Part shown: in pieces, positions 7,350 through 9,915 of the stretch
Numbering within the stretch: the first letter of the stretch is position 1
Layout: each line of letters opens with the position of its first letter
From: Patescibacteria group bacterium
GTDB taxonomy: Bacteria > Patescibacteriota > Patescibacteriia > Veblenbacterales > UBA10138
NCBI GenBank assembly: GCA_003512705.1
Contig: DOPF01000023.1
Location: forward strand, 1 to 11,544
DNA: 11,544 nucleotides
Direction: 5' to 3'
Position numbers and translations under genes: made by a program
The notes under the pieces: generated by a model
Told to the model about the DNA's origin: nothing
What the model saw: only the letters and a program-made list of their open reading frames with translations
Database searches by the model: none

Positions 7350-7366
7350 TTAATCATAAGAACGCC

Positions 7367-7402
7367 TAAGGGATTTTGTCCCACGTGGGACAAAATCCCT
7401 TA
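7367..7402. repeat. Perfect 36-bp palindrome
   Basis: The sequence is its own reverse complement over 36 bp with no central spacer. Each arm is TAAGGGATTTTGTCCCAC and the centre is CCCACGTGGG. It lies between the leftward SIMPL promoter and the rightward small-peptide unit. It has no T-tract suited to termination on either strand. It may be a palindromic repeat element or a divergent regulatory site. Confidence 0.9.
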
Positions 7403-7456
7403 AGATAAAATATAGTGAAATAATCAGCCATCAACCGAAAGCGCGGGTGATTACAT

Positions 7457-7485
7457 TTGACAAATAATCATCAACAAGTTAACTT
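7457..7485 (+). promoter_or_regulatory. Possible promoter of the plus-strand small-peptide unit
   Basis: A perfect -35 TTGACA (7457-7462) is followed 17 bp later by TAACTT (7480-7485), which keeps the important T, A and final T of the -10 but is otherwise weak. A start near 7492 would place the folded leader at the 5' end of the transcript. Confidence 0.4.
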
Positions 7486-7502
7486 TAATGGCTCATTAAC
7501 AT

Positions 7503-7616
7503 CCAATACCTTTCGGTAATTGGCGGTCTTTTGGCCCCCCAGCTACCGGAAGGGAGCGCTCAAAAAATAAGCGCTTAAGCTCAAGAGAGTTGGTCGCTCT
7601 TGGTGCCAATCCTTCC
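7503..7616 (+). ncRNA. Structured leader RNA, class unknown
   Basis: Several stems can be drawn. A hairpin at 7503-7523 has CCAATACC pairing with GGTAATTGG around one bulge, with loop TTTC. A closing stem GGAAGG/CCTTCC (7548-7553 with 7611-7616) encloses two perfect hairpins, AGCGCT (7555-7560 with 7570-7575) and CAAGAG/CTCTTG (7582-7587 with 7597-7602), giving a three-way junction. An alternative hairpin GCTACC-GGAA-GGGAGC (7542-7557) competes with it. GGCCCCC (7533-7539) is complementary to GGGGGCC at 7659-7665 inside the peptide gene. It precedes a short ORF and a terminator, so a cis-regulatory leader is the simplest reading. No known riboswitch class was recognised. Confidence 0.5.
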
Positions 7617-7641
7617 CCTTTATTCTTAATGCTTAAACTAT

Positions 7642-7797
7642 ATGTTTAGAGCATTTTCGGGGGCCTTGGCACTAGCTCTAACTTTATTGGTGCTTAATTG
7701 GTTCCTTCCCACATTGCTGCAGGCAATAGTGGATGTAGCGCTAAAGCTACTACAATTGTTGAGTAACGCGCTCGACAATTTGCCGCCAGCCATGTAA
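7642..7797 (+). CDS. Small hydrophobic peptide, 51 residues
   Basis: This is the only convincing plus-strand gene. The product starts 'MFRAFSGALALALTLLVLNW' (residues 1-20), a membrane segment with one positive charge in front. It continues with 'FLPTLLQAIVDVALKLLQLL' (21-40), which could be a second or amphipathic helix, and ends 'SNALDNLPPAM'. Only five residues are charged (R3, D31, K35, D45 and the terminus region). No Shine-Dalgarno is visible. Support for a real gene comes from the consistent hydrophobic pattern, a strong terminator starting 8 bp past the stop codon, and a folded leader upstream. The family is not recognised. A small membrane protein is most likely; a type I toxin-like peptide is possible but no antisense RNA was identified. 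Confidence 0.55.
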   Translation: MFRAFSGALALALTLLVLNWFLPTLLQAIVDVALKLLQLLSNALDNLPPAM

Positions 7798-7804
7798 AAA
7801 GTTT

Positions 7805-7841
7805 AGGCCGTACGATACACATCGTCACGGCCTTTTCTTTT
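7805..7841 (+). terminator. Strong intrinsic terminator after the small peptide gene
   Basis: AGGCCGT and ACGGCCT pair perfectly. Inside them ACGAT pairs with ATCGT around the loop ACAC, with a single bulged C. The stem is followed by TTTTCTTTT. This 12-bp stem with T-tract argues that a plus-strand transcript truly ends here. Confidence 0.85.
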
Positions 7842-7871
7842 AATAAAAATGTGCCGTCATAAAGCACTCCA

Positions 7872-7889
7872 TTTGTACCCATTCGCGCG
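7872..7889. repeat. Half copy of the 30-bp palindromic repeat
   Basis: This is the 18-nt left part (TTTGTACCCATTCGCGCG) of the palindrome found whole at 7981-8010 and 9881-9910. The right arm is absent and a different GC-rich hairpin element begins within 6 bp, suggesting replacement or insertion at the palindrome centre. Confidence 0.85.
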
Positions 7890-7978: not shown

Positions 7979-8012
7979 ACTTTGTACCCATTCGCGCGAA
8001 TGGGTACAAAGT
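7979..8012. repeat. Palindromic repeat, full copy A
   Basis: A perfect 34-bp palindrome whose 30-bp core (arm TTTGTACCCATTCGC) recurs intact at 9881-9910 and as a half at 7872-7889. The centre is CGCGCG. It lies downstream of the purC terminator. Confidence 0.92.
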
Positions 8013-8079
8013 CAAATTAATAAATCTGCCGTTAATTAATTTTCGGGATACGTCCCATACCTTGATAGATGTGGGGGTA

Positions 8080-9880: not shown

Positions 9881-9910
9881 TTTGTACCCATTCGCGCGAA
9901 TGGGTACAAA
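9881..9910. repeat. Palindromic repeat, full copy B
   Basis: This perfect 30-bp palindrome is identical to the core at 7981-8010. It lies between the purB terminator and the purE leader, so the two full copies bracket the purE-purC operon with its leader and terminator. Confidence 0.92.
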
Positions 9911-9915
9911 GTTAA

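Follow-up and report, generated by a model that had tools for sequence, protein, structure and literature searches.

The stretch of DNA analysed here, called the window throughout, comprises 11,544 nt of contig DOPF01000023.1 from a Patescibacteria group bacterium (assembly GCA_003512705.1). All window genes recognised by family searches lie on the minus strand; they encode asparagine–tRNA ligase, pilin-like proteins and a SIMPL protein, and include purC as well as purE-like and purB-like genes. The initial annotation had described a single plus-strand gene at 7457–7841, organised as a complete unit with a TTGACA element, a folded leader, a 51-residue open reading frame (ORF) and a 12-bp terminator. 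Each of these parts was located, and no other gene was recognised on the plus strand. It opens with a sigma-70-type promoter-like site at 7457–7485, a consensus match only, in which TTGACA (7457–7462) is followed after 17 nt by TAACTT. The predicted promoter matches the consensus at 9 of 12 positions in all, the −10 hexamer TAACTT being weak, and the 17-nt spacing of the two elements places the predicted RNA start near 7491. At this predicted 5′ end lies a boxA-like element, GCTCATTAACA (7491–7501), followed by stem P1 (7509–7553), a small hairpin, P2 (7554–7576), seen in the predicted fold of the window leader only, and hairpin P3 (7581–7603). The ORF for a membrane-type peptide of 51 residues occupies 7642–7797, stop codon included. 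An in-frame stop sits a few codons upstream of its ATG at 7642, with no start codon in between, and no ordinary Shine-Dalgarno sequence was seen before the AUG.

The unit ends in an intrinsic terminator at 7806–7841, composed of a 12-bp stem with one bulged base (7806–7832) and then TTTTCTTTT. A simple terminator scan did not list it. Related units carry a terminator-like hairpin and T-run within 70 nt past the stop in 43 of 47 cases, three units having been omitted as too short or holding N. Folding of the whole unit, ORF and terminator included, is far more stable than that of its shuffles (z −7.4, with 0 of 100 reaching the same stability), whereas the leader on its own stands out less (z −2.4, with 3 of 200 shuffles reaching it).

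Several other elements occur around the unit. Upstream of it, window positions 7365–7404 form a long near-perfect inverted repeat of 18 pairs, which is also the source of a sub-threshold Rfam microRNA match. The palindromic repeat TTTGTACCCATTCGCGCGAATGGGTACAAAG is present in two copies (7981–8015 and 9881–9915), with a half-copy near 7872 found by eye. A 38-nt direct repeat occurs three times (382–419, 987–1024 and 1841–1878), its copies 89–95% identical to the reference copy, and a RelE-like and ParD-like toxin–antitoxin pair, both members below curated cut-offs, lies on the minus strand at 429–913. Operon or pathway context was considered as a clue to function and set aside. When 401 neighbouring ORFs of 50 units were clustered, every gene family was confined to the vicinity of 8 units or fewer, and the clustering gave no recurrent partner beyond SIMPL, a protein found near three units of the window's own family. 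On the evidence of its layout and neighbours, the unit looks like a stand-alone gene.

The initial annotation recognised no relative of the peptide, a statement now outdated, as relatives were found in at least 60 genomes and 55 protein clusters, none of them characterised. A single-sequence search of 57 genomes recovered the peptide from three further genomes of the window's family (65 to 70% identity) and from two other families (35 and 48% identity, E about 1e-4). A profile built from eight peptides (A1) matched 63 of 380 genomes of the class at E≤0.05, and a second profile built from 49 peptides (A5) matched 83 of the 380 at the same threshold. At E≤1e-6, profile A5 retained 60 genomes, 49 of which had supplied the profile and 11 had not; the remaining 23 matches are weak and were left out of the peptide family count. 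Outside the class, no match better than E 0.0049 was obtained among 379 genomes of the phylum, and this best match holds an internal stop and was taken as chance. A single-sequence scan of GTDB species contigs likewise returned no relative. The 55 clusters from the protein collection have no Pfam domain, and their source names include Candidatus Veblenbacteria, Buchananbacteria, Falkowbacteria and the Parcubacteria group. The 49 family members gave no match in Pfam, NCBIfam or PHROGs at E 0.01.

All 60 genomes have one peptide match at E≤1e-6 except G122, where the match is split in two, each piece at a contig end. Five other genomes, including G272, show second matches with E between 2e-4 and 0.05. 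Frameshifted homologues had been named in the initial annotation as evidence that would count against a gene; a broken peptide frame was seen in just 1 of the 60 confident genomes, G272, in which the leader is still found. Four genomes of the window's own family (G001, G003, G004 and G006) gave no match to profile A5. On a tree of 49 peptides the family label switches 21 times, as few as 22 families allow; 200 shuffles of the labels gave a mean of 37.9 and a minimum of 34. By copy number and tree, the peptide gene is nearly always single-copy and is inherited vertically within one class of Patescibacteria. Ka/Ks ranged from 0.11 to 0.42 in 11 of 17 compared ORF pairs, and pN/pS from 0.24 to 0.40 in the 6 of 17 pairs with saturated synonymous sites. 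By these ratios, the 51-codon ORF is under purifying selection, i.e. selected as a protein.

The peptide is divided by proline 23, which is invariant in 49 of 49 peptides. The stretch preceding this proline is hydrophobic (Kyte-Doolittle average 2.1), and this first helix is not amphipathic. In all 49 peptides, the 22 residues following the proline exceed their own shuffles in amphipathicity (z >1, mean 2.9). Charged residues are few, with net charges of −3 to +1 across the family. AlphaFold predicts the window peptide as a single helix spanning residues 2–45 (mean pLDDT 88.8, pTM 0.50). Foldseek found no PDB match for this predicted helix at E≤10, and 11 sequence profile matches in the PDB at E≤1, mostly to designed helical proteins, were taken as composition. 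We infer that helix 1 spans the membrane while helix 2 rests on the membrane surface, and that the peptide's target would be the membrane itself or a membrane partner.

A hydrophobic peptide of under ~60 residues with an amphipathic helix has the size and character of a type I toxin, and the initial annotation had drawn this likeness. The peptide would then depolarise the membrane, with the leader holding translation back and a small RNA serving as antitoxin; the tisB mRNA of E. coli likewise carries a long structured leader (PMC7708055). Three results make a type I toxin unlikely. None of the 49 peptides matches any Pfam family at E 0.01, and Pfam includes type I toxin families. Minus-strand promoter-like sites, from which an antisense RNA could start, are no commoner than chance predicts (seen in 16 of 50 units, against 15.3 by shuffling) and absent from the window unit. 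The gene is also nearly always in one copy and inherited vertically. What does hold from the same annotation is the completeness of the unit, with its folded leader, small membrane-type peptide and terminator; it resembles structured-leader mRNAs that encode small membrane proteins.

To follow the leader across genomes, a covariance model, R1, was built from 12 leaders aligned by MAFFT (alignment A3), with the structure written by hand. Over 380 genomes, R1 matched 19, at one place each, and each of the 19 places immediately precedes the peptide; 12 of these sequences had gone into the model and 7 had not. Most of the 60 genomes with the peptide thus escape R1. The initial annotation had proposed searching related genomes for both peptide and leader, and both are kept, in 60 and 19 of 380 genomes, respectively. 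Applied to the sequences of the 50 units, R1 gave 34 matches at E≤5, two of them on the reverse strand of the leader; these and other weak matches among the 34 were not counted. A search of 7440–7860 with Rfam 15 covariance models returned just two matches, no better than chance (E 1.9 and 8.7) and well short of the gathering scores.

Stem P1, predicted by folding and by covariation, consists of a lower stem (7509–7518 with 7544–7553) and an upper stem inside it. Alignment A7, which holds 24 R1 matches at E≤0.1 from 27 sources, has changes on both sides in 13 of the 14 P1 pairs, with 90% of cells paired. The whole structure reaches a covariation score of 0.57 on A7, against 0.225 when shuffled and at most 0.198 when slid, in an alignment fitted to R1 in a way that favours the structure. 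On A3, which was aligned free of structure, 9 of the 14 P1 pairs changed on both sides and 85% are paired; the covariation score of the complete structure is 0.394 and falls to 0.226 on shuffling and to 0.260 on sliding by one. By this covariation, the leader is a conserved structured RNA; the searched genomes showed it nowhere but in front of the family peptide. The unit is more than chance because its relatives keep the peptide, the leader and the terminator. A chance ORF behind a chance fold, which the weak −10 and the short ORF might favour, is refuted by the comparison, with purifying selection and covariation accompanying the conserved parts; its probability is negligible.

Conservation of both RNA and peptide, always together where both are found, could also be read as a sign that the gene chiefly makes the leader RNA, which the peptide from the same transcript would perhaps anchor at the membrane as a membrane ribonucleoprotein. 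OLE RNA, reportedly a membrane-associated RNA–protein complex, offers a precedent. The RNA–peptide contact supposed here would fall to a peptide with few charged residues and a net charge near zero or below, and no leader without the peptide occurs among the 19 R1 matches. We regard such a dual-function RNA as improbable.

Hairpin P3 carries the loop AGUUGGUCG (7588–7596), including the motif UUGGUC at 7590–7595, on a stem of 7 bp in the window. On A3 only 56% of P3 is paired because the loop length differs between families, and P3 was therefore tested without the model. Of 50 leaders, 38 contain the motif TNGTC 20–75 nt ahead of the ATG, 28 of these 38 at 48–58 nt. Its flanks pair by at least 4 bp in 28 of the 38 motif leaders, with 26 different 5′ strands. 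Dealing the right flanks among the leaders gave 10.4 stems on average and never more than 17; where leaders had several motifs the best stem was kept, somewhat favouring the observed value. UNGUC is absent from 12 of the 50 leaders, several of them from one family (f49). A likeness of AGUUGGUCG to the tRNA D-loop was rejected on inspection, as the first G varies (UUAGUC, UUCGUC).

A conserved loop in a freely changing stem, within a leader exclusive to one gene, is what a riboswitch or a protein-binding site would be expected to have, and with no Rfam family matched, a new class is conceivable. P1 and P3 would then gate translation of the peptide for reasons unrelated to ribosome synthesis, and the peptide would regulate a membrane transporter or enzyme. 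We consider both parts of this reading possible but doubtful. The units have no conserved pathway neighbour, no gene family recurring beyond the 8 of 50 noted above, and the boxA-like element is left unexplained. A switch in which the 3′ strand of P1 (GGAAGG) re-pairs with the pyrimidine-rich tail before the AUG was also considered. Such re-pairing reaches at least 6 bp in 38 of 50 leaders, with a median p of 0.29 and p≤0.05 in 6 of 50; composition explains most of it, and it is not clearly above chance.

The core of the P3 motif recurs just past the 3′ end of 16S rRNA. Trailers were collected behind 16S genes whose 3′ end follows a single fixed pattern, present in 71 of 115 genomes of the class and 72 of 191 of the phylum, and the sample is part of these fixed-pattern matches; of 59 class trailers, 57 were used, a truncated one and one containing N being set aside. 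GUCG lies within 90 nt in 56 of 57 class pre-16S trailers (18.9 by shuffling) and RGUCG in 52 of 57 (10.2 by shuffling), while four control words are at chance. The 50 unit leaders are similarly enriched, with TNGTC in 38 (9.5 by shuffling), TTNGTC in 25 (3.4) and GTCG in 27 (8.9). By inspection, the short trailer element sits between two hairpins. The form [AU]NGUCG was observed in this setting just past the 16S 3′ end in both the class (loci L175–L236) and the phylum (loci L237–L266). A phylum-wide draw contained GUCG in 21 of 30 returned loci, against 7.0. The element is therefore not confined to the class, and a hitherto undescribed 16S maturation factor may act there. Since the shared core is only ~5 bases, the link between trailer and P3 is suggestive, not proved.

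The 5′ end of the leader may supply a second resemblance to ribosomal RNA precursors. With two units close to contig ends set aside, 20 of 48 leaders contain the pattern GYTCWTTW between 85 and 190 nt ahead of the ATG, compared to 1.2 by shuffling and 2.3% of background windows. The window leader carries GCTCATTA, one base off the strict pattern GYTCTTTA, and 28 of the 48 leaders lack the boxA pattern. On inspection its distance from the −10 varies, so that the element looks RNA-level rather than part of the promoter. Among 22 leaders of 16S genes in the class, the core [CT]TTTRAMA is found in 19 (3.3 by shuffling), several times inside TTTTAAAA palindromes, and TTTGACAA in 10 (0.2 by shuffling). 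The full GYTCWTTW is present in only 2 of the 22 (1.6 by shuffling). In genome G005, GTTCTTTA is present in the 16S leader. The window's bin has no 16S gene, so the rRNA comparison rests on other genomes of the class. These 16S regions also show an AAAACAG...CTGTTTT hairpin upstream of 16S in 12 of 22 leaders, with none by shuffling (among loci L175–L234).

NusB is encoded in 18 of 20 unit-bearing genomes, the window's genome included, and none was found in the other two (G037 and G223). A search of the same 20 genomes (G000 included) gave no rho match above the curated cut-off. All 20 contain sub-threshold matches only, interpreted as ATPase subunits. The best-known use of boxA, against Rho, therefore does not apply, and protection from Rho is disfavoured as the role of the element. 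Another use is documented in PMC5725501: the Nus complex at boxA represses E. coli suhB, mainly at translation, and also represses a toxin gene of Citrobacter koseri through boxA.

Our preferred reading, to which we assign a probability of about one half, is that the unit encodes a small membrane peptide behind a leader resembling an rRNA precursor, and that binding of Nus or ribosome-assembly factors to this leader ties peptide output to ribosome production. Such factors probably bind the leader. NusB and S10 would bind the nascent leader at boxA, and a further factor, the same one that would recognise the GUCG element of the pre-16S trailer, would bind the P3 loop. Binding would control the folding and translation of the message, and peptide output would thereby be coupled to ribosome production. 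More tentatively, the leader could be a mimic of the rRNA precursor: when rRNA is scarce, free assembly factors would bind it and set the amount of peptide. If true, ribosome assembly would be wired directly to the cell membrane, in bacteria without detected Rho.

How Patescibacteria regulate their genes has been little studied, and a covarying leader with rRNA-like signals makes a specific claim about possible ribosome–membrane coordination in reduced cells. Neither the structured RNA nor the family of small membrane proteins has an entry in the libraries searched, yet both are conserved across 22 family codes of uncultured bacteria. The unit was undescribed in the literature consulted on Patescibacteria small proteins, structured RNA and boxA leaders, a body from which most subscription journals fall outside coverage.

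Among known systems, OLE RNA shares with the unit the linkage of a structured RNA and a membrane protein. Unlike OLE RNA, the unit leader is ~150 nt long, forms one message with the peptide and has no Rfam match. The tisB/istR1 system of E. coli (PMC7708055) is similar in its long structured leader and its tiny hydrophobic, amphipathic, membrane-type peptide; in tisB mRNA a standby site lies ~100 nt upstream of a sequestered ribosome-binding site. The unit differs from tisB/istR1 in lacking a Pfam match and any sign of an antisense promoter, and in being single-copy and vertically inherited. E. coli suhB and the ParE-like CKO_00699 of Citrobacter koseri (PMC5725501) share with the unit a boxA-like element near the 5′ end of a coding mRNA. 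In contrast to these leaders, that of the unit is long and conserved, with P1 and P3, and precedes a small membrane peptide, and its dependence on Nus factors is putative. Set against boxA- and Nus-regulated mRNAs generally, the unit occurs in genomes of which 18 of 20 encode NusB and 0 of 20 a Rho above cut-off. The Patescibacteria pre-16S rRNA differs in that its trailer element lies between two hairpins, whereas the P3 motif is in a hairpin loop. What the unit leader has in common with this precursor are short cores only, the boxA core of the 16S leaders and the GUCG core of the 16S trailers.
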